Made by a program: the position numbers and the translations under genes
Assembly (NCBI RefSeq): GCF_005116655.2
Contig: NZ_CP050698.1
Location: 3,393,489-3,457,488, forward strand
Direction of reading: 5' to 3'
DNA: 64,000 bases
Source: Desulfosediminicola flagellatus
GTDB taxonomy: Bacteria > Desulfobacterota > Desulfobulbia > Desulfobulbales > Desulfocapsaceae
Part shown: in pieces, positions 16,386 to 30,106 of the stretch
How the letters are laid out: each line of letters opens with the position of its first letter
Numbering within the stretch: position 1 is the first letter of the stretch
Notes under the pieces: model-generated
The model's input: only the letters and a program-made list of their open reading frames with translations
What the model was told of the DNA's origin: nothing
Databases searched by the model: none

Positions 16386-19300
16386 TCAGCTGAGATATTT
16401 TGCAATTTCACTCTCAGACAATCCGACAATTTCATCCAGCATTTCTTCCAGGTCCCCCTTTTCGCATGATTGCGCTACAGCAGCCACTACTGCTGACGAC
16501 AAACCGTTGATGGTTCGTTTATCAAAGAGCGTCCGAAGTGCAATTTCAACTCCGAAGTAATTTTTTATACGAACAGCAACTCGTGTGGCAGCAAGAGAAT
16601 GTCCTCCAATCTCAAAAAAATCGGCATTGACATCAGGGCATTCCATATGAAGAACATCGCACCAGATTGAGGCAATTGCTTTCTCGGTTGAAGTCCGGGG
16701 GGCAACCGGAAGTGAACAGCTTTTTACTCGATTTATAGGCATCTTACTCAGTTTTGTATAGTCGACCTTACCATTGATCGTCAGCGGAATAGCATCAATT
16801 TTCATGATACCTCCCGGCTGCATATACGGTGGTAAATATCTGCCCAGATGTTCACGCAACTCATTCTCCTCGATGACACTCTCTGCGGTATAAAAGGCGG
16901 CCAGGAAACTTTCGCCTGTTCCTTCAGGAGGATTGGAATATCCCAGTGTATTTAAAATGGAGTATGTGTTTGTCATATCAGGAGAAACATCAAGTTCGGC
17001 AAGGAAATCCTCCCTGGTCCGGTGACCAATGCGAACTTCCCAACTGCCCGGAAGTGCATAATTGTGAAATCCCCGTTCGCGTTGATGCACATAGATTCCT
17101 GCATCGTTAATTGCACAGTTCGTCGAACATCCGATTTCTTTAGGACTGATCCAAATCATGTGTTTCTTCAAATACGAAAAAATATCGGCCCGGGTAACAT
17201 CACAGTAACGATAAAAATCGATAAATTCTATTTGTTCGAAAACATTATCCGTCGCAAACAAATCACCCGCCATGGTTCTCCGCACAGAATCATCCATGCG
17301 ATGATACGCCTTACGAGCTTCAAGCACCGCGGCATCAATCCCGACATTATCAAATATTCCGCCAGAAAAGAGTTCGCCCAGCCGGGTTTCAAATAGTTGT
17401 CCCCGGGAAAGGCCGGTAACGATATATGGAATGTTTTTATCCTGTGCGGTTTGTATCGCTGCAGTATAGATGCTTTTGAAACACCCGTTACACACATTGC
17501 TGTATATTTCGAGGCTTTCGGAAAGAATACTGCTCATAGAAGGCGGGGTATGAATCAGGTAATCAACTCCGAGATGCGCCACTGCTGCTTTAATGTTCTG
17601 AATGGCACTTTCATACAGGTAGCCATTGTCGAGTGTGAAAATCAGTATTTTGTACCCCATCTCAACCAGCCTGCAGAGCATGTATGTGCTGTCTTTTCCC
17701 CCACTATATAGCACCAGAATATCGTATGGGCCGCTACCTTTTCTCATGACGGTTTTAAGATCGTCGAGTGTACAGAAGTAGCCCATTGCACGATCCTTAT
17801 ATGCCTTAAAGTCATTACATATACTGCATGCTCCCATTGTGTCGAAACTGATTCCCGGGTAGTTGGAAGGCATCCCGCAGCTGCTGCAGTGATGTAATTC
17901 TTTCTGATCGATGGGTATTTCGTCAATCTCCCGACAAACAACAGCTGCATTCTGTATAGCAGGATGCTCAAGGAGTCCTGATTCAATCTCTCCCGGTTCA
18001 ACCCTGTACCCACGGATCTTTACCTGCCTGTCAACTCTACCAAGATAGGTGATTTTCCCGTCTTCTTCCCATCTCGCCCGATCACCAGTGCGATACAATC
18101 GGATTCCGGGATGGGTTGGACTTTCAATAAACCTCTCTGCAGTCAGTGCCTCTCTGCCGAAGTATTCTCTGGCGACTCCTATTCCACCGATACAAAGTTC
18201 ACCGGAAACACCTATTGGAGCAAAATTCAGATTTCGATCAAGAATATAGATGACACTGTTGTCAATGGGACCACCTATAGAGACAGAGCCTGTTTTTTCT
18301 ACTTCAGGATCATATTCATGTATCATACAGCCAACCGTTGCTTCGGTAGGCCCATATTCATTATAGATTGCCACCCTGCCTTGTGCCATTTTATGTGCTG
18401 CACTGGTCAACTCTACTTTCAGGTCTTCACCTCCCAGAATCAGACTATGAATTCGTTTTGGAGAAAATCCTTCTGCCAACACCAGTGCAAGATGGGCAGG
18501 AGTCAGCTTAACTACATCGACCAGATCATCAGCTATTACCCGAAGAATCACTGGCGCAGAATCGACATCATCATAAATCCGCACCACACCGCCGCTAATC
18601 AGCGGTACAAATAACGAAGTAACCGTCAGGTCAAATGCCAGAGAGGAAAAAAGAGGAAAATCTACAGCATTGCCATTACCGTACTGCCGAAGTGCCCAGG
18701 TTATGTAGTTCACCACACTCTGATGCTCTACCATAACCCCTTTGGGTTCACCGGTGGAGCCAGAGGTGTATATAATATAGGCTCCGTTTGATGGGGTGAT
18801 ATTACTGACGAATAATGTATCATCAACTGTGGTGTGATGGCGCTTCAGTATATCAGAACGAAGAATGACTGGCGAATCCTGCCCTTCAACCAACTCGGCT
18901 AAGGATTCACGGACTTTCCCTTCTCTCTTTTGATCAACAATGACAGAACGCATTCGACAGTCTTTAGCTACAAAGGCAGTTCGTTTGGATGGCCATACAG
19001 GATCCATTGGCACATAGACCCCGCCAGCCTTTAGAATCCCAAGCAATATGGCAAGCATCTCTGCTGATCGCCCCATACAGACCCCAATGCGATCCTCTTG
19101 CGTAATTCCGTTATCGAGCAAATACCGGGCGATCCGGTTTGCATCCGCCTCAAGCTCCTTATAGGTTTTGGATATTCCATCAACTTCAATTGCCGCCGGA
19201 GCATCCGGATGTGCAATGACCTGCGCTGAAAACAGCTCATGAATACACTGTTGCGGAACAGGAAATACACACCCCTTGCCTATACGGGTGAGATGGTCGT

Positions 19301-20693
19301 GTTCTCCGACAGGTAAAAGTGACAAACCATCTGCCTGCACATCTACATCGTTAACCACCTCCGTAAGAACGACCTGAAAATGACGCCAAAGTCTTTCAAT
19401 AGTTGTACGCTCAAAGAGTGCCTTCTTATAAACAACATCACATTGAATTGAGTCATCAACCTCCCAGAGATACACTTCAACATCAAAACGTACTGTGCGT
19501 GTGCCTATCGGATAACTCGTGACAGTAAGTCCCTCCAGGGAAAGTTCTGCAATGGGGGCGTTCTGCATGATAACCATTATCTGGACCAGCGGCATCGCCT
19601 CATTGCTCCGCTCAGGCCGACTGATCTCTACTATTTTATCGTAAGGAATCTCCTGATGACCATAGGCATCCAGAGTAACATCCCGAACCCTGGTTATCAG
19701 CTCACGAACAGTAGGAGATCCTGACAGATCCAGACGAAGCGGTAAAGTATTGACAAAGAAACCGATGAGAGGTTCAAGTTCTGCTCGCTGCCGATTGGCG
19801 ATTAGAGAGCCCAAAATGATATCATCACTATTGGCATACCTGCCGAAGACAATCGAAAAAGCGGTCAATAGTATCATGTAGGGGCTGGCCTGCAACTGAC
19901 TGCTCACAGTGATAATCGATTGTGAAAGATGTGGAGAAAGCTCAGAATGAAATACATCCGCTTCATGAGAAGGCTCAGTGCTCGCAGGCGTCCTTGTTGG
20001 TAACAGAGGTACAATCGAGCTCTTTTCGAGTTTTTGCTTCCAATAGTATACAGATGTATCCCGCTGACCACTCGCCATTTCCTCCTGTTGCCTTCTGGCA
20101 AAAGCAGTGTATTGAATAGGGAGAGGATGTAGCGGTGAACCATGCCCTTCTATAAATGCACCATAGAGCGAGGCAATCTCATTGACCAGTACCCCCATCG
20201 ACCAGCCATCCGAAACAATATGGTGCATAGTCAATAAACAAATATATTCAGTATCTTCAATCTGTATGAGAAGGATACGTGCCAATGGTCCCCTGGTAAG
20301 CTCAAACCGTGTAACAGCTTGCTGTTCGACCATGATTGAGGCCTGTAATTCACGATCCTCTTCGGCAACGGTTCTGAGATCTACATATCTGATGGGAATT
20401 TCCATCCTGGTATAAACCACCTGCTCCACACCATCTTCCCCATACCTGAAAATAGTACGTAGAACATCATGTCGTTTCACCACTTCCTGAATGCTTTTTT
20501 CAAAAATCGCTCTATTCAGGTTTCCCTTGAGTCGGAGCCCTGCCGGAATGTTATAAAGAATTTCGTCCGGATCGAATTGTTCGAGAAACCACAGGCGCTC
20601 CTGCGCAAACGACAGAGGCGCGATCAGTTGTATTGTCGATGCAGCATCGTCGCTACTCATATCGCTACAGTCCTTTGCAGGCAAGTGATCCAT
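16386..20693 (-). CDS. NRPS module C-A-PCP, adenylation domain interrupted by PP-loop amidotransferase-like module
   Basis: This 1435-residue protein is the last enzyme in the operon. An LCL-like condensation domain (about 22-460, HHIVSDGW at 157-164) is followed by an adenylation domain with YTSGSTGEPKG near 642. The specificity residues read by eye are D-L-T-K-I-G-E-V-G, one step from the known Asn code DLTKLGEVGK. Between core motif A8 (RGYRVEPGEIE, 894-904) and A10 (NGKVDY, near 1307) about 330 residues are inserted. They carry Cys936, Cys939, Cys956 and Cys959 and the PP-loop SGGKDS at 997-1002. The carrier serine is Ser1366. The protein ends with a short acidic tail and has no thioesterase. 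It follows the previous gene by 36 bases. Confidence 0.93.
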   Translation of the reverse strand: MDHLPAKDCSDMSSDDAASTIQLIAPLSFAQERLWFLEQFDPDEILYNIPAGLRLKGNLNRAIFEKSIQEVVKRHDVLRTIFRYGEDGVEQVVYTRMEIPIRYVDLRTVAEEDRELQASIMVEQQAVTRFELTRGPLARILLIQIEDTEYICLLTMHHIVSDGWSMGVLVNEIASLYGAFIEGHGSPLHPLPIQYTAFARRQQEEMASGQRDTSVYYWKQKLEKSSIVPLLPTRTPASTEPSHEADVFHSELSPHLSQSIITVSSQLQASPYMILLTAFSIVFGRYANSDDIILGSLIANRQRAELEPLIGFFVNTLPLRLDLSGSPTVRELITRVRDVTLDAYGHQEIPYDKIVEISRPERSNEAMPLVQIMVIMQNAPIAELSLEGLTVTSYPIGTRTVRFDVEVYLWEVDDSIQCDVVYKKALFERTTIERLWRHFQVVLTEVVNDVDVQADGLSLLPVGEHDHLTRIGKGCVFPVPQQCIHELFSAQVIAHPDAPAAIEVDGISKTYKELEADANRIARYLLDNGITQEDRIGVCMGRSAEMLAILLGILKAGGVYVPMDPVWPSKRTAFVAKDCRMRSVIVDQKREGKVRESLAELVEGQDSPVILRSDILKRHHTTVDDTLFVSNITPSNGAYIIYTSGSTGEPKGVMVEHQSVVNYITWALRQYGNGNAVDFPLFSSLAFDLTVTSLFVPLISGGVVRIYDDVDSAPVILRVIADDLVDVVKLTPAHLALVLAEGFSPKRIHSLILGGEDLKVELTSAAHKMAQGRVAIYNEYGPTEATVGCMIHEYDPEVEKTGSVSIGGPIDNSVIYILDRNLNFAPIGVSGELCIGGIGVAREYFGREALTAERFIESPTHPGIRLYRTGDRARWEEDGKITYLGRVDRQVKIRGYRVEPGEIESGLLEHPAIQNAAVVCREIDEIPIDQKELHHCSSCGMPSNYPGISFDTMGACSICNDFKAYKDRAMGYFCTLDDLKTVMRKGSGPYDILVLYSGGKDSTYMLCRLVEMGYKILIFTLDNGYLYESAIQNIKAAVAHLGVDYLIHTPPSMSSILSESLEIYSNVCNGCFKSIYTAAIQTAQDKNIPYIVTGLSRGQLFETRLGELFSGGIFDNVGIDAAVLEARKAYHRMDDSVRRTMAGDLFATDNVFEQIEFIDFYRYCDVTRADIFSYLKKHMIWISPKEIGCSTNCAINDAGIYVHQRERGFHNYALPGSWEVRIGHRTREDFLAELDVSPDMTNTYSILNTLGYSNPPEGTGESFLAAFYTAESVIEENELREHLGRYLPPYMQPGGIMKIDAIPLTINGKVDYTKLSKMPINRVKSCSLPVAPRTSTEKAIASIWCDVLHMECPDVNADFFEIGGHSLAATRVAVRIKNYFGVEIALRTLFDKRTINGLSSAVVAAVAQSCEKGDLEEMLDEIVGLSESEIAKYLS
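16929..17921 (-). other. inserted WbpG/PseA-like PP-loop ATP pyrophosphatase module
   Basis: Residues about 925-1255 of the last NRPS form an independent module inside the adenylation domain. A four-cysteine zinc-type motif (C-x2-C, PGISFD, C-x2-C) is followed by the N-type ATP pyrophosphatase signature LVLYSGGKDSTYML, then TGLSRGQ and a second cysteine pair C-x2-C at 1068-1071. This order is that of the N-acetyl sugar amidotransferases (WbpG, PseA, LegN), which turn an acetamido group into an amidine. Here the target is unknown; an Asn side-chain amide, a peptide amide or the carrier thioester are all possible. ATP use is inferred. Confidence 0.85.
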
Positions 20694-23700: not shown

Positions 23701-23885
23701 TGGCGCTCGACCAGGAAGTTGAACGCATCCTGCAGGATACCGATATCTAGAGAGCCGGTTATCCGATACGATCGTTGCTCAAAATATGTTGATCTGGATT
23801 CTGGATGCAGGAGGAAATGAAGCAGCATGCTCTCCTGCATCGGTGAAAGCGGGTAAATATCAGCAATATCGTTTTTCGTGAACAT
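20730..23885 (-). CDS. NRPS module C-A-PCP
   Basis: This 1051-residue protein begins directly with a condensation domain (YPLSPMQESM at 11-20, HHIVVDGW at 145-152). This N-terminal form is typical of domains that accept a D-configured donor, which fits the epimerase in the preceding protein. The adenylation domain spans about 465-945 with YTSGSTGTPKG near 609. The specificity residues read by eye are D-A-L-Y-L-G-N-V-I, which match no code I can name, so the amino acid stays open. The carrier serine is Ser998 in GGHSL. There is no epimerase. The start codon overlaps the preceding stop by one base, so translation is probably coupled. Confidence 0.93.
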   Translation of the reverse strand: MFTKNDIADIYPLSPMQESMLLHFLLHPESRSTYFEQRSYRITGSLDIGILQDAFNFLVERHASLRTIFVAKKSKRPLQIALKPRPVPWQQKDLSGMSANEQDHALNMVRSLDIEKGLDCTSELPIRITLVTLGESCFELIWSMHHIVVDGWSTGILYSELMEFYRSAVSGVRIQPPEVVPFSRYVTWLEKRDNNESLVYWQKELEGYQAKTVVPGELKHRNKNPYLAESVHLICDPGLGADLQEIATRWQVTLSTIIHTLWAVLLGWYNDSDDVVFGTVVSGRPESLYGSDRIVGLCINTIPVRMQFRKGMSIRQIAVDAQRRSLEASDHHFSDLAEIQNSTSAKRSLINHIVAVENFPKTFSENLDALTIQPTRSHEQINYDLALIVVPQETFEIELQYNRSAYDDATANNVARHVQTLLEDLVRNPEMLIEECEPLSTEEYSLLDSLNSTIRPFETDTTLSRLFERQVSAFPSGRAITDDKGSLTYLELAALSGRVAGFLRQQSNFSPGSCVAVMIDRSRWLPAALFGILQAGATYVPLDPLCPEQRAAAILKNCGCTIVLSLPDLYESLDWPSDILITDVTAIEEKYFLAESIPAPQGSPAYIFYTSGSTGTPKGVAISSASVINFASWIGHYYEFDNSTRSTMIASPAFDASILELIPVLLSGGSIYCLKDTFIDGEQLIVFYQKHDINMVYLPPVLCEEICKIHGGRLHPDFKILTGADVVRYVGDGSLRVFNNYGPTEGTVIATAVEVTGFDNEQPIPIGYPIDNTEIFIRDHHGRKTAPGAIGELFIGGAGVAQGYVGREDLTEERFIPHPLKEGDRVYRTGDRVRLAKKGGLDFLGRIDTQIQIRGFRIEPMEVEKSLCEHPMVRGAAVISRDEHGGEILVAFLIPESSQYEQRPPSKELRAFLRKVIPEYMIPTRFVWVEEFPLTVSSKIDRKKLRETVLLESVEDDHVHERQPVTPTEEQLCTIWREVIGVESISRDDNFFSLGGHSLSATRMASRVRQDLSIELSLRVIFDNPVLSDLALHIEELSNDSNDTVIEKTVA

Positions 23886-26800
23886 TAAATGATGCCCTCC
23901 AGCTCATCCAGGCTTAGGTCTGAATAGGTGAAATCTGCCGGCGTCATTTCAGTCTTTCTACCATCGCAGCAATGTTGGATGAGATGTAGTATTTCTGCAT
24001 GGAAGAGGTCTGCAAGCGATTGTGCAGCATCCTCAGGGCAGGCTTGCCGCGAATATGACAGGGAGATGTTTAATACTTCATCGACAACAATGCCGCTGAC
24101 ATCAACTATATGCTGTCGCTTCGCATCCGGATTTACCGCCGAACCATGATCTGAATCGAGTTCAACAGTAAACTCAGTGTCCGTTTGATCCTCAAGACGA
24201 CCGAGATAATTGAAGCTGATTGCCGGAGAACAGGAAATATCGTAGGTTCCAGTTATGTCGTCCGGCGCCAGGAACCTCAATATCCCATAGCCAATACCAC
24301 TCTCAGGAACCGCTCGCAGAGATTCTTTTACCGATTTGATATGATACGCCACATCTCTCTCAGGGTTAATAGAGAGTGCAAACGGGTACGTTACTGTCAA
24401 CCAACCGCACGTTCTGCTGAGATCCAAACCGAATGTCTCTTCTCTGCCATGACTCTCGAGCGTAATCAAAGTAGTGCTATGCCCGTGTCCGGCGTAAAGT
24501 GCACGCCCGAGTGCACACAGCAGAAGATCCTCAACCGTAGTTGAATAGGCATGATGCACTGACAGACACAGCTTCTCAGTTTCTTCTCTACTCAGTTTAA
24601 ATTGAATCATTGAAACATTGCGGTAGGTGTTATCACGAGCATCTGACCACATATCAGGGATATGCGTATTACTTTGCGCAACAGCCTGCCAGTACGGTAA
24701 CTGGGTGACTATCCGCGAATCACTCATATGCATTGTGAGCGTGTTAGCCCACTGTATGAGGGATACCGGCGATGGCGTCAACGTCACGTTTAAACCTGCC
24801 CGGGCATCTGTATACAGTTGAACGAGTTCTTTAAGAAGAATCCTCCAGGAAATCCCGTCTACCACTAAGTGATGAATCACCAGAAGTATGCGGTCTCCGT
24901 CATTGGTTCGGATGCATGCTGCCAACGCAAGCTTGCCGGATTCAATATCAAGAGAGCTATGGAGCAATTCAGCAATGTCTTCGTAACTGAGACGTTTCTC
25001 ACCCGTATTACGGATATCATACTCTTCGATGAGCCGTGATTGGAACTCGCTGAGTTCCTGATGCCATATACCCTGGTCCTGATAAAAAGTATTGCCAAGA
25101 GACACATGGGTAGCAAGAAGACAATCCCAGGCTGCCTGCAACGCTTCTATGTCAATATGCTTCGTACTTGAAAGCACCATGGCATGATTAAATCGCTCGG
25201 GCTCCACCGTGTGATTCTGAAAAAAATTCGTTTGAATCGGCGTCAACGGCCCGTGGTCTGCACGTACTTCAGCACCACTTTTTTTCTCTCTGACAGGAGT
25301 AATATGTACGGCAAGTTCTGCAATTGTCGGATAGCGGAACAAGTCACGGATGGTCACCACCCAACCAGCTCGTGCCACCTGGGAAACAACAGTAATAGCT
25401 TTGATCGAATCGCCGCCCAGGGCGAAATAATTATCATGTATGCTTAATTCATCTTTGCCGAGCACAGTTGCCCAGCATAAAGCCAACACCTGTTCTTCTT
25501 CGGAACGAGCCTTTTCTATTTCAGCTCCACGGGTTAGAGAGTTTGTCGGCACCATACTTCTCAATTGCCGACGGTCAAGTTTTCCTGATGAATTGAGGGG
25601 CAGTTCAGCAACTTTACTGAACATCGAAGGAATCATATAGGCAGGAAGATAACTGCGCAGATACTCCTGCAAGGCCTCAACCGTGATTTCTGCCAGGGTA
25701 ACGACAAAAGCTGTCAGCGTTCCCGGACCATCACCTGACACGATCGCAGTGACCGCGCAATTGGCAACTGCAGGATGGCGGCACAAACATTTCTCAATCT
25801 CCTCGGGTTCGATGCGATAGCCACGCACTTTGATCTGATTGTCTATCCGGCCACCGAACTCAATCATCCCCTCTTTGGTCCAGCGCGCCCTGTCTCCAGT
25901 ACGATATAGTCGACCACCATCAGCGTAAGGATCTGACACAAAACTCCGTGCACTCTCATCCGGCCTGTTCACATACTCCCGCGCAACCCCCTCACCACCA
26001 ACATAGAGTTCACCAAAGACGCCCCGTGGCACCAGTCGCATTGACCTGTCAAGAATACGAAAATAGCCGTTATCAATGGCTCTACCAAGTGGGAGCTGCC
26101 CCCATGTACGGTAGGAATCGTGATTAAAGAGAAAGGAGGACGCATCGACACAACACTCGGTCGGACCATACATATTACGAATGACAATACCCCGGTGTTC
26201 GGGATGGGCATACAACCTGTCAATCATGGAGCGTGAAAGTTTCTCTGCACCAACAAGTAACTGATCAAGGACCATAACTGAGCCACCCTGATCCATTGCG
26301 TCGAGCATCATTGCCAACCTGCTCGGGGTAACGTTTACCATCTGAATATGATGTTCTTTCAGGTAATCAAGCAATAACAAGGGGTCAGCAGCCGTATCGT
26401 CAGCTACAAGATGCAGGGTATACCCTGATAGAAATGCACCGAAAATCTGCTGGACCGAAACATCAAATATTAACGGCGCCACGGTTGCTTCGTTTATCGT
26501 TGAGGGATACCTGGCATAGATCGTTCGCCTTACCCAACCGATAAGGTTCTGTATAGAATGGTGCTCAATCACTACCCCTTTAGGGTTACCAGTGGAACCT
26601 GAGGTGTAAATGATGTACGCAACATCCGTTGGCATGACGTTACGTTGCGGATTTTCAACAGAACCATTTTCGATACTGCCGGATAACTTTTCCATGCTTA
26701 AAAACTGGCATGACGATTCGCACATTCTTTGCCGCTGCTCTGCTGGGATATAGGCAACCCCTGCAACATTTTTAAGCAGATCACTCTTTGCAAAACCATC

Positions 26801-29800
26801 ATTTCGGCTCAGCATTATCTCAACTATTTCGCAAATAGTCGCCTCTCCCTCGCCAATTACTGCTGCATCAACGTTGAGATCCCGCAACAACAGGTCTGTG
26901 CTTGAGGTTGCATAGGGGCCTCCTGCAATAATCGGTACGGTGAAACCCCACTGGCGAATAAGTTCAATACTCTTATGGAAAAAATTCTTATAATACGTAA
27001 GGGTTCTCACCCCGATAAAATCCGGCTGAAACTCTTCCAATAGCCTGCGCAGACCATCAAAATCTTCAAAATCAATCCGCGCCTTAGCAATCTTTCCCGT
27101 GATTTTTTCGCCAAACCGTTGATTCAGCACGGTAAGCAGCGATGCCAGACCTAAGGGAGGTTCAACCACATCGTAAAGCAAGGTCCTGTCCTCAACGAAA
27201 TACTGACTTAGATCAAGCAGCAGAATTCGCAGACCCTCTTTTTTTTGACTAGGCTTTTGAGGTGCAAACACCTTAGCAATTCGTCTGTTTAAGTCAGGTG
27301 GTCGAATTTCCGATTCGTTAATACAGGAGACATTGCCTAAATCTGCATGGTTCAAGCCGGCAACAGCTAATAGATCGTCAAGTGTATGTATATCCGCAGG
27401 TAGATAACTGTCATATTTCAGAGCAAGGGATCTCTCATCCATCACCTTCATCTGATATGGCAGTACCTGTTTCAGCCTATCCTTACTCAGGAAATATTCG
27501 TTGAGAAAAGCCATCTGGTAATGGGTTGCAACCTCTCTAGCGAAAGGCAGTGTTGTTGGAAGCTCATGATAACCCAACTCCATCGATTCCATGATAGCCT
27601 GTTCACTGATGCCGTGATTGTGTGCAATACCAGCCATTTCTGTATCGGGGAAGATCCGCAGAATAAAAACATAGGGGAAATGAATCCAGTTCACGCCCTT
27701 CATAAACTCCAGGGTCATCTTTGCCTCTTCGGGAGTTTCCGAAGGGAAGCCATGCATAGTGAACAGTTCCAGAATAACCTGAGGGTATTTCGAGGCAATA
27801 TAATTGAGGTTGTCGTGAAGCCTATCTATTTTCAACTGTTTTTGAATAAGTTTCTGCAGGCGTGCACTTGCTGTTTCTAAGGCAAAAGCCATTTGAATGG
27901 TACCTGCAGAGATCATGAGATCAATGTCGTCATGACTGAGAATGTCACCCCGCAACCCATTTGAAAAAAAGAACTGACACTGCAAATTCTTTGCGATCAC
28001 TTTTTCAAAGAAGGATCGACTTGCAGCACGATCAAGATTGAAGATATCGTCTATGAATACAAAACGTCTTACCCCGCATTCGTAGAGTTGTTCTATCTCT
28101 GTAAAAAGATGTTCCGGCGATCGCCGCACATGCTTCTTCGGCCATATCTTATGACAGTAAGCGCATTGATACGGACACCCTCTCGTAGCCTGAATTGCCA
28201 CCGAAAACCGGGCTGTCGACTGGCCAAGAAATTGGTGATATGCTTCGTAATCGATAAGGGACCTATCAATAATCGGCAAAGTATCGAGATTGGCAATCGG
28301 GGTCCGGGGCGAAGTATAAAAGGGATCTACGGATTCGAAAGATTCTGCAAGCCTATGCTTGAATGGCAGCTTTATGAGGGTCCCGGTTTCGAGAACAACA
28401 TATTTGGCATGGCACTCATGGACCATATGAGCCAGCCGTTTTTCAGGCATCTCCTGATCTAGTGGCAGATAGGCCGCACCAGCCTTGAGTATGCCCAAAA
28501 TAGAAACAATATACTCAGTTGACCTTGATAGCAGGATGGCAACGACATCGCCATGCTGCACATCATATCCATCAATCAGCGCATGCGCGAAACGGTTTGC
28601 ACGTTGATTAAGCTCAGCGTAGCTCAGGTGATCATTTCCAGATACCAGAGCAATTGCCTCCGGCGTTTTTATTACCTGTTGTTCAAATAAATCCACCACT
28701 GTCCCATCAGGCTGCGGATGAACTGTCGAATTCAGATCAAACAGGAGGTGATCAATTTCTGTTCTGTTCATTATTTGAACAGCATCAATTGGTGAAGTAA
28801 ATTCATTAACGCACGCTGAAACACACCTGGAAAAATGTCGGATCAGAGCTTCAATCTGCTCATCCTCATAGTGGTCACGACCATAAAAAAATGTGCAGCG
28901 CAACCCGTCATTGGTTGGCAGAAACTGTATATCCAACGCATAGTTGGTCCGCTCATGGATAGTTGTACTTTCTAAAACAAACCCGGAATCACCCGAGCGG
29001 GCAGCACTCTCCACAGCTACATCGACCGGATAACTTTCAACTACCATGATCGTACTGAACAGACCTGCCGGCAACGCACTCGCACGCTGAATTGCCGCAA
29101 GAGATGAATGGTGATGAGAGGCAGAACGTAACGACTTCTCCTGAACGTTTATTGCCAGTGAACGCCAGCTCATATCCTTTTCAATACACACCCGAACAGG
29201 TACGGTATTAATGAGGTTGCCCACCATGTGTTCAATACCCTCAACTTCAGCGGGTCGTCCGGATACAACCATGCCGAACACCACATCAGAGCAATCGTTA
29301 TATCTGCTTAAAATCACTGACCAGATACATTGAAGAAGAACACTTACAGTCACTCCACATTCAGCTGCCCGCGTCTGCAGCTCACCATAAAGACCAGGTT
29401 CAAGTAAGGTGCTGACAGATTCCTGCTCTCCGGCATTTGCAGACAGATCGAGGCTGGATTGTGGAATCTCAGCAATTCGACTGTAACCTTGCAGGTAATC
29501 ATCCCAGAACGCGTATGACACCTCACGGGACTGTTGCTCAAGCCAACTGATATAGCCGTTAACAGGTACCGAAGGTGAAAGAACTGTTAGCCGATCTTCC
29601 TTTAAAGATGAATATATCTGTAAAAACTCACTCAGCAGAATACCCACTGACCAGCCATCCAGCAGGAGATGGTGATGAGTCCAGACAACATCATAGAGAT
29701 CATCGCCCCGCTGAATGACAAACATCCGCATAAGCAGGTCACGACTGAGATTAAAGGGGGTCGTTCGCTGGAACACCAATATTTCATTTCGAACCGAATC

Positions 29801-30106
29801 ACGCCTCGTCTCATCTATAGCACGCAGATCCTGAAAATCGACTTTCAATGAAGCTTCTTTAACGACCACCTGAAGGGGACGATCGGTGCCTTCATGGGCA
29901 AACACTGTCCGCAGGCTGTCATGCCGTGCTATCAGTGTATTCCAGCTTCTCTCAAGTAATTTAATATCCAACGCTCCACGAATGGACCAGCAGACCTGCT
30001 GCATATAGGATACATGCCCGGTATCTGCCAGTGCATGATGCAACATACCTTCCTGCATCGGTGAGAGAGGGTAGACACCTTTGATATTATCTTTAGTCGT
30101 TCGCAT
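23885..30106 (-). CDS. NRPS module C-A-PCP-E, adenylation domain interrupted by radical SAM/B12 module
   Basis: This 2073-residue protein has a D-donor-type condensation domain (HHLLLDGW at 145-152). Its adenylation domain starts near 475 and reaches core motif A2 (LKAGAAYLPLD, 540-550). About 585 foreign residues (570-1155) follow before A3 (YTSGSTGNPKG near 1167). The rest of the adenylation domain runs to about 1515, the carrier serine is Ser1567, and an epimerization domain (HHLVVDG at 1745-1751) closes the module. Specificity residues read as D-V-Q-N-L-G-M-V-D, related to the Gln-like codes of other modules but not identical. The residue should be incorporated in D form. The inserted module probably modifies the residue or the growing chain. 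Confidence 0.93.
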   Translation of the reverse strand: MRTTKDNIKGVYPLSPMQEGMLHHALADTGHVSYMQQVCWSIRGALDIKLLERSWNTLIARHDSLRTVFAHEGTDRPLQVVVKEASLKVDFQDLRAIDETRRDSVRNEILVFQRTTPFNLSRDLLMRMFVIQRGDDLYDVVWTHHHLLLDGWSVGILLSEFLQIYSSLKEDRLTVLSPSVPVNGYISWLEQQSREVSYAFWDDYLQGYSRIAEIPQSSLDLSANAGEQESVSTLLEPGLYGELQTRAAECGVTVSVLLQCIWSVILSRYNDCSDVVFGMVVSGRPAEVEGIEHMVGNLINTVPVRVCIEKDMSWRSLAINVQEKSLRSASHHHSSLAAIQRASALPAGLFSTIMVVESYPVDVAVESAARSGDSGFVLESTTIHERTNYALDIQFLPTNDGLRCTFFYGRDHYEDEQIEALIRHFSRCVSACVNEFTSPIDAVQIMNRTEIDHLLFDLNSTVHPQPDGTVVDLFEQQVIKTPEAIALVSGNDHLSYAELNQRANRFAHALIDGYDVQHGDVVAILLSRSTEYIVSILGILKAGAAYLPLDQEMPEKRLAHMVHECHAKYVVLETGTLIKLPFKHRLAESFESVDPFYTSPRTPIANLDTLPIIDRSLIDYEAYHQFLGQSTARFSVAIQATRGCPYQCAYCHKIWPKKHVRRSPEHLFTEIEQLYECGVRRFVFIDDIFNLDRAASRSFFEKVIAKNLQCQFFFSNGLRGDILSHDDIDLMISAGTIQMAFALETASARLQKLIQKQLKIDRLHDNLNYIASKYPQVILELFTMHGFPSETPEEAKMTLEFMKGVNWIHFPYVFILRIFPDTEMAGIAHNHGISEQAIMESMELGYHELPTTLPFAREVATHYQMAFLNEYFLSKDRLKQVLPYQMKVMDERSLALKYDSYLPADIHTLDDLLAVAGLNHADLGNVSCINESEIRPPDLNRRIAKVFAPQKPSQKKEGLRILLLDLSQYFVEDRTLLYDVVEPPLGLASLLTVLNQRFGEKITGKIAKARIDFEDFDGLRRLLEEFQPDFIGVRTLTYYKNFFHKSIELIRQWGFTVPIIAGGPYATSSTDLLLRDLNVDAAVIGEGEATICEIVEIMLSRNDGFAKSDLLKNVAGVAYIPAEQRQRMCESSCQFLSMEKLSGSIENGSVENPQRNVMPTDVAYIIYTSGSTGNPKGVVIEHHSIQNLIGWVRRTIYARYPSTINEATVAPLIFDVSVQQIFGAFLSGYTLHLVADDTAADPLLLLDYLKEHHIQMVNVTPSRLAMMLDAMDQGGSVMVLDQLLVGAEKLSRSMIDRLYAHPEHRGIVIRNMYGPTECCVDASSFLFNHDSYRTWGQLPLGRAIDNGYFRILDRSMRLVPRGVFGELYVGGEGVAREYVNRPDESARSFVSDPYADGGRLYRTGDRARWTKEGMIEFGGRIDNQIKVRGYRIEPEEIEKCLCRHPAVANCAVTAIVSGDGPGTLTAFVVTLAEITVEALQEYLRSYLPAYMIPSMFSKVAELPLNSSGKLDRRQLRSMVPTNSLTRGAEIEKARSEEEQVLALCWATVLGKDELSIHDNYFALGGDSIKAITVVSQVARAGWVVTIRDLFRYPTIAELAVHITPVREKKSGAEVRADHGPLTPIQTNFFQNHTVEPERFNHAMVLSSTKHIDIEALQAAWDCLLATHVSLGNTFYQDQGIWHQELSEFQSRLIEEYDIRNTGEKRLSYEDIAELLHSSLDIESGKLALAACIRTNDGDRILLVIHHLVVDGISWRILLKELVQLYTDARAGLNVTLTPSPVSLIQWANTLTMHMSDSRIVTQLPYWQAVAQSNTHIPDMWSDARDNTYRNVSMIQFKLSREETEKLCLSVHHAYSTTVEDLLLCALGRALYAGHGHSTTLITLESHGREETFGLDLSRTCGWLTVTYPFALSINPERDVAYHIKSVKESLRAVPESGIGYGILRFLAPDDITGTYDISCSPAISFNYLGRLEDQTDTEFTVELDSDHGSAVNPDAKRQHIVDVSGIVVDEVLNISLSYSRQACPEDAAQSLADLFHAEILHLIQHCCDGRKTEMTPADFTYSDLSLDELEGII
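26642..28399 (-). other. inserted, apparently permuted B12-dependent radical SAM module
   Basis: Residues about 570-1155 contain the radical SAM cluster motif C-x3-C-x2-C at Cys644, Cys648 and Cys651 (TRGCPYQCAYC). A barrel with IDDIFN, FALETAS and FTMHGFPSET follows, and then a B12-binding-type Rossmann domain at about 958-1100 with PPLGLASLL, AGGPYATSS and GEGEAT. In class B radical SAM methylases the B12 domain comes first. Here the order is reversed, and the insert begins at the linker that normally joins the two (ANLDTLPIID). The DxHxxG cobalamin motif is not seen, as in many class B members. Likely reactions are C-methylation or another carbon-centred change. Confidence 0.85.

Follow-up and report, generated by a model that had tools for sequence, protein, structure and literature searches.

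How can an adenylation (A) domain of a nonribosomal peptide synthetase (NRPS) hold a whole cobalamin-dependent radical S-adenosylmethionine (SAM) enzyme, and what would that enzyme do there? The question is raised by 64,000 nucleotides of the Desulfosediminicola flagellatus genome (contig NZ_CP050698.1, positions 3,393,489 to 3,457,488 of the forward strand; here, the window). The genome is 6.75 Mb long and lies on one contig. A polyketide synthase (PKS)/NRPS cluster of ~16.4-59.4 kb in the window includes, as one protein, the open reading frame (ORF) 23885..30106 on the minus strand, a single open frame of 2073 amino acids (aa). The translation, Pfam and NCBIfam give its order as condensation (C), A, peptidyl carrier protein (PCP) and epimerization (E). 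The A domain is split by ~530 residues between motifs A2 and A3, and these run from a radical SAM barrel through a helical stretch to a B12-binding domain. An earlier note on this DNA had described such an interruption in a C-A-PCP-E module, and Pfam and the translation agree with it. We regard it as virtually certain that this A domain carries a complete, permuted cobalamin-dependent radical SAM enzyme in its A2-A3 stretch.

The inserted unit spans residues 596-1127 (26726..28321; minus strand, like every feature of this ORF) according to a hidden Markov model (HMM) of 535 positions that we built from the inserts of the window's relatives. The earlier note had placed the insert at 26642-28399; it does lie there, but its HMM limits are slightly narrower. 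The radical SAM core covers residues 639-801 (27704..28192; Pfam PF04055, E 4.2e-12). The translation places its complete CxxxCxxC motif at C644, C648 and C651 (28154..28177), the positions claimed beforehand. The B12-binding Rossmann domain covers residues 982-1094 (26825..27163; Pfam PF02310, E 7.6e-11). Both marks of a radical SAM enzyme, the cluster motif and a partial triosephosphate isomerase (TIM) barrel, were found by translation, Pfam, AlphaFold and Foldseek. When residues 588-1140 were modeled alone (70-row alignment), AlphaFold gave a predicted local distance difference test score (pLDDT) of 91.4 and a predicted template modeling score (pTM) of 0.91. The earlier note had made a B12-type Rossmann fold in the predicted structure a test, and the outcome, a confident fold, was in its favor.

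Does the A domain survive the interruption? Its N-terminal part, with motifs A1-A2, occupies residues ~456-575 (28382..28741), as judged by the translation, an alignment of interrupted A domains and the A fold seen with AlphaFold and Foldseek. The C-terminal part, with motifs A3-A10, occupies residues 1133-1509 (25580..26710; Pfam PF00501 and PF13193); its AMP-binding portion (1133-1378) starts at profile position 151, and AMP-binding_C covers 1436-1509. The A3 motif YTSGSTG (residues 1167-1173; 26588..26608) begins just downstream, 39 residues past the HMM end of the insert. The whole interrupted domain was modeled from a 34-row alignment with pLDDT 86.7 and pTM 0.78, and Foldseek aligned the A domain 4d56 to it over 1043 columns with a target TM score of 0.92. 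Hence, in the model, the insert leaves the A fold around it whole. This suggests, indirectly, that the two ends of the insert may be near each other, as the earlier note had supposed. The module is completed by the C domain (residues 9-454; 28745..30082; Pfam PF00668), the PCP (residues 1541-1601; 25304..25486; Pfam PF00550) and the E domain (residues ~1615-2070; 23897..25264), whose start we placed by eye. The protein has two PF00668 stretches, and we take the NCBIfam match TIGR01720 at residues 1919-2071 as the E-domain marker.

We surveyed genomes with two exact 7-residue patterns as seeds. Of the 91 relatives that turned up, the best 80, at 76 loci, were retained, so the survey is no census. 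The 80 instances discussed below are those of the survey together with the window; an overlap check found none. They comprise 55 in NRPSs, 24 free-standing proteins and one half of a frame-broken copy. Among the 55, 41 have A3 35-74 residues past the insert (the other half of the broken copy is one of them), nine have an eroded A shell and five are cut by a contig end. The A-domain shell is present in 53 of the 55, always with the same insertion site; L037 and L009 copy 1 lack the A1-A2 shell. Insertion follows a stretch typically ending ...LLT and, in intact copies, precedes one like ...REILLLDE.

Metagenome-assembled genomes (MAGs) named as Aminicenantes supply 40 of the 55 NRPS instances; 28 of these 40, out of the 80 instances in all, come from one MAG, CS4-C025. 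The other NRPS hosts are the window, Desulfopila sp. IMCC35008, Clostridium puniceum DSM 2619, one Acidobacteriota MAG and MAGs named as Ruminiclostridium, Lutispora, Halothermothrix, Bacteroidales, Desulfuromonadaceae, Desulfarculus, Thermoflexales and Elusimicrobia. Most of these groups are generally known as anaerobes, as would be expected since oxygen-sensitive clusters favor such life. Near the window, the radical SAM/B12 insert is rare and patchy: counting the window's own genome each time, the build was found in 2 of 93 genomes of its family, in 2 of 242 drawn from its order and, at a stricter cutoff, in 1 of 395 drawn from its phylum. Desulfopila sp. IMCC35008 has the same build at 47% identity over query residues 27-584. 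A chimera or frame artifact is ruled out by this recurrence, there and on many other contigs, which also exceeds chance; the build is, as the earlier note required, present at the same site in related genomes.

Is the order of the two parts truly reversed? In class B radical SAM enzymes the B12 domain stands N-terminal to the barrel; the window insert and its relatives have the B12 Rossmann domain but not that order. When the insert HMM was matched to the canonical relatives L080, L082, L083 and L084, positions ~362-529 (B12) fell at the N-terminal side and positions ~2-290 (linker and barrel) followed. In all 73 of the 80 instances whose HMM match covers both parts, the window included, the B12 part is C-terminal, in one colinear match from barrel to B12; the remaining seven are cut or broken copies. 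NCBIfam profiles give the same reversal: the insert barrel matches the late part of models such as TIGR04072 (181-380 of 443) and BchE (161-354 of 497), and for the B12 region the matched stretch is an early one, at 63-136 of 382 in TIGR04013 and at 30-158 of 624 in the KedN5 model. In a profile search of the PDB, the barrel resembled AprD4 165-396 and TsrM 221-420, and the B12 part resembled TokK 65-140. Set against the canonical relatives, the cut falls in the linker that joins the B12 domain to the barrel, where the earlier note had put the start of the insert. Its reading of a circularly permuted B12-type radical SAM enzyme is thus supported. Canonical B12 radical SAM genes also occur in runs on single contigs: five two-part frames and two barrel-only frames for L080, and four two-part frames and one barrel-only frame for L083.

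Is the permutation peculiar to inserted copies? The earlier note had tied it to insertion into a loop. The 24 free-standing instances rule out a permutation restricted to inserted copies: the 23 long enough to show the order all run from radical SAM to B12. Permuted order is therefore not limited to inserts. Each is a protein on its own, 545-628 aa long except for two that a contig end truncates; they come from Pelagibacteraceae, Kordiimonadales, SAR324 and other lineages, and those that we aligned are 40-46% identical to the window insert. They share its domain order and differ from it as single proteins and, except for L076, in the residue right after the third cysteine, which is Asp (CDxx) where the NRPS type has His (CHKIWP). 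For two proteobacterial cases, L055 and L059, Pfam shows the same permuted order, and the neighboring genes are of mixed kind; in L055, from a Pelagibacteraceae genome, a canonical B12 radical SAM enzyme and an Antibiotic_NAT-family protein are encoded close to the free-standing one (L055:9911-14499).

The exception, L076 of [Clostridium] polysaccharolyticum DSM 1801, is free-standing, carries CHKIWP and directly follows NRPS/PKS genes encoding A-ketoreductase (KR)-PCP, ketosynthase (KS)-PCP, A-nitroreductase and A-PCP. By motif and neighborhood, it is probably an in-trans version of the inserted enzyme. A quick tree paired it with L014 (Shimodaira-Hasegawa-like approximate likelihood ratio test [SH-aLRT] 92). 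We considered that L076 had been released from an A domain, and did not adopt this reading: a careful tree gave it no resolved place in the 50-row NRPS clade, and the bootstrap was unsettled. Both trees were rooted at the midpoint.

What might the inserted enzyme do? In the reaction that we propose, the A domain would activate an L-amino acid and load it onto the downstream carrier. The inserted enzyme, using SAM, a [4Fe-4S] cluster and methylcobalamin, would then abstract hydrogen at an unactivated carbon of the loaded residue, for which the beta carbon is our best guess, and attach a methyl group there. The methylated residue would next be epimerized in the window or, in most of the relatives with a callable next domain, condensed. 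Such in-line C-methylation is suggested by three precedents: methyltransferase inserts act after loading, crystals of CysS contained a pantetheinylated substrate, and DscE acts in trans. The structure of CysS was solved with a pantetheinylated substrate, according to its title, and that of TokK with a ligand whose name in the title starts with "(2R)-pant"; these ligands make a carrier-bound substrate plausible. Methylation by interrupted A domains with methyltransferase inserts comes after carrier linkage, and in TioN and MarQ the methyltransferase occupies the same A2-A3 position (PMC11355689). DscE is an in-trans B12 radical SAM methyltransferase acting on the nonribosomal discodermins (PMC12858407). 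Published A-domain inserts include methyltransferases, oxidases, monooxygenases and ketoreductases (PMC11355689, PMC8097286). We give in-line cobalamin-dependent C-methylation of a carrier-bound residue even chances.

The earlier note had also mentioned the adjacent epimerase. The next domain could be called in 34 of 54 NRPS rows, and it was C in 28 and E in 6, so an epimerase partnership as the rule was rejected. Neither was called in the other 20, mostly because the ORF or contig ended early; L014, L034, L035 and L045 have long tails there. Downstream of the insert-bearing NRPS in L013, L020 and L081, separate frames of 566-573 aa match radical SAM weakly, at 76-83 bits.

Several results weigh against in-line methylation, and the first concerns whether the insert works at all. 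The signature residues speak for our reading: in the 70-row insert alignment, C61, C64, P397 L398 G399, G475 G476 P477, E499 and E501 never vary, and C57 and G500 hardly do. Of the 79 instances covering the CxxxCxxC motif, 78 have it intact. The one departure is the embedded insert of L032, which has Tyr in place of the first cysteine and is otherwise well kept; the change may be a natural loss or a sequencing error. L032 speaks for a catalytically dead insert or a chimeric locus, whether of assembly or of genes. With the 53 A shells interrupted at one site among the 55 NRPS instances, and with the motif so widely kept, we consider that explanation highly improbable. As judged from the sequences, the cluster-binding motif and the B12-domain signature of the insert are intact.

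A second group of contrary results concerns the chemistry. The insert scored below the cutoff of every NCBIfam model, and the best ones (rSAM_ladder_B12, ApyD and BchE) are functionally mixed. The best solved match, both by sequence and by fold, was AprD4, a diol dehydratase and no methyltransferase; OxsB was also among the fold matches. Could the inserted enzyme perform another radical reaction on the carrier-bound residue, with B12 in another role? Dehydrogenation, dehydration, C-C or C-N cleavage, ring change, stereoinversion and cross-linking are candidates, though in the window, with its E domain next in line, stereoinversion is improbable. The AprD4, OxsB and BchE matches favor such a reaction, as does the fact that one insert lineage meets many residues, which suits chemistry on the shared backbone. 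However, the structural matches also include the B12-type enzymes MgmA, TsrM, TokK, CysS and Mmp10, which are titled or known as methyltransferases. Foldseek keeps sequence order, and its matches of B12 radical SAM enzymes to the permuted insert are partial; longer, loose matches (TM ~0.2) were to MetH and methylmalonyl-CoA mutase, in which the B12 domain comes after a barrel. Another radical reaction is, in our judgment, a possible but doubtful alternative to methylation.

Does the insert meet the residue chosen by its own A domain? Specificity codes were read in GrsA numbering. The window code, DVQNLGMVDK, fits no assigned classical code. Among the 41 instances with A3, 33 fit a classical code and 8, the window included, fit none; we take the residues to be Thr in 10, Pro in 9, Ile in 6, Glu in 3, Val in 2 and Asn, Leu and Tyr in 1 each, so that Thr, Ile, Val and Pro account for 27 of the 33, a share that speaks for the proposed methylation. 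In the careful tree, all nine Pro-coded inserts fell into one clade of 10 rows (support 100/95), the tenth row having no code assignment; the clade takes in Halothermothrix and Thermoflexales MAGs. Such a clade is expected if the insert meets the residue that its own A domain selects. On the quick insert tree, code labels required 13 changes against 19.6 when shuffled, and 0 of 2000 shuffles were as low. Insert distances correlated with those of the A-domain parts before (r 0.53) and after (r 0.46) the insert over 34 rows. These patterns suggest that the insert is tied at least partly to its own A domain.

Among the contrary results is also that, without Pro, the code labels of the remaining 24 rows required 12 changes on the quick tree against 12.9 shuffled, with 32% of shuffles as low. 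Substrate tracking beyond Pro is thus unsupported by this test. For the other residues, either the insert is tolerant or A-core swaps altered the code after insertion. A-core swaps are reported to be common (PMC8097286) and could by themselves blur the relation of insert tree to code.

The last contrary result is erosion of the shell. In nine NRPS copies, A3 is missing past the insert, and the sequence there soon reaches a PCP or another domain. Eight of the nine are preceded within their ORF by another A domain, whose pocket in every case reads CVQYIAHVVK or is very close to it; Cys there replaces Asp235, the residue that normally holds the amino group of the substrate. A ninth such pocket precedes the contig-cut copy L074, and among the A domains with a code read in the survey, no others have Cys at 235. 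Wherever such a Cys235 A domain with its Pro-like pocket was found (L009, L010, L023, L024, L027, L030, L037, L067 and L074; 9 of 9), the radical SAM unit behind it is eroded or cut. The six eroded copies with a comparable A1-A2 shell have a mean pairwise identity of 27% in the shell and 63% in the insert, as against 46% and 56% in 37 intact copies; in L037 and L009 copy 1, the shell is lost on both sides of the insert. Where the insert is kept while its shell erodes, it must be independent of its own A domain, and the radical SAM unit seems to be under selection even after the host A domain stops working. The contrast of 63% with 27% in the six eroded copies also argues against a dead insert. 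In a separate gene, L042:9650-12241, an A1-A2 shell, radical SAM and B12 parts and an eroded A remnant are followed, by eye, by a partial C domain.

Perhaps, then, the A domain is a mere mooring whose own choice of residue is of no account, and the radical SAM unit acts on residues that belong to other modules or on the chain as it grows? The eroded copies with a preceding A domain, the two that lack the A1-A2 shell as well, free-standing L076 beside its NRPS/PKS genes and the mismatch of insert tree and code outside Pro all fit such a role. Against it stand the Pro clade and the presence of A3 after the insert in 41 of the 80 instances, and A-core swapping alone could produce the mismatch (PMC8097286). 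We consider a mooring role unlikely.

The cluster holds a second interrupted A domain. In ORF 16386..20693, a PP-loop (SGGKDS) domain with CxxC pairs (16944-17921, minus strand) lies between A8 and A10 of an A domain that we take to be Asn-coded. Its best NCBIfam match was WbuX, an N-acetyl sugar amidotransferase, at 98 bits and below the cutoff. Amide or thioamide formation on the residue held by the carrier is a possible role. A similar insert occurs at the same place in the Aminicenantes loci L042 and L044, shortened in L044 by the end of the open frame; the L042 gene described above follows the NRPS gene that carries it.

Returning to C-methylation and the radical SAM insert, we lean slightly toward the following account. 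A permuted family of B12 radical SAM enzymes entered A domains at one fixed site across several phyla, mostly of anaerobes, and allows assembly lines to functionalize C-H bonds in line, by radical chemistry, in residues such as Thr, Pro, Ile, Val and Glu while these are on the carrier; in Aminicenantes-type genomes it would have outlived its host, the A shell wearing away until what was left was an A-(radical SAM-B12)-PCP module whose A pocket has Cys235. Ribosomally synthesized and posttranslationally modified peptides (RiPPs) and separate enzymes already provide examples of radical C-methylation at unactivated carbons. If our account is true, it is also built into an NRPS A domain, such residues could be predicted from sequence, and an unexplored class of peptides from anaerobes is indicated. 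It would likewise be a case of a permuted enzyme that settled in a host domain and then outlived it, and it would offer NRPS engineering a new insert at a site already tolerant of inserts (PMC11355689). The titles, abstract openings and passages searched contained no radical SAM domain within an A domain and no permuted B12 radical SAM enzyme; a 2020 classification of interrupted A domains lies outside that coverage, so an earlier mention is possible.

Among known systems, TioN and MarQ are alike in holding a tailoring domain in the A2-A3 stretch with the A motifs kept (PMC11355689). The window insert differs in being a permuted radical SAM/B12 unit of ~530 residues and not a classical SAM methyltransferase, and it could reach an unactivated carbon. 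The class B enzymes TokK, CysS, TsrM and AprD4 share its radical SAM core and B12 Rossmann domain, as judged by Pfam, fold and profile, whereas the window insert is reversed in domain order, lies inside an NRPS and falls below all NCBIfam cutoffs. DscE is, like the window enzyme with its presumed methylation, a B12 radical SAM enzyme for a nonribosomal peptide (PMC12858407). DscE, though, works as a protein of its own and was assayed with discodermins (PMC12858407), whereas the window enzyme is part of an A domain.

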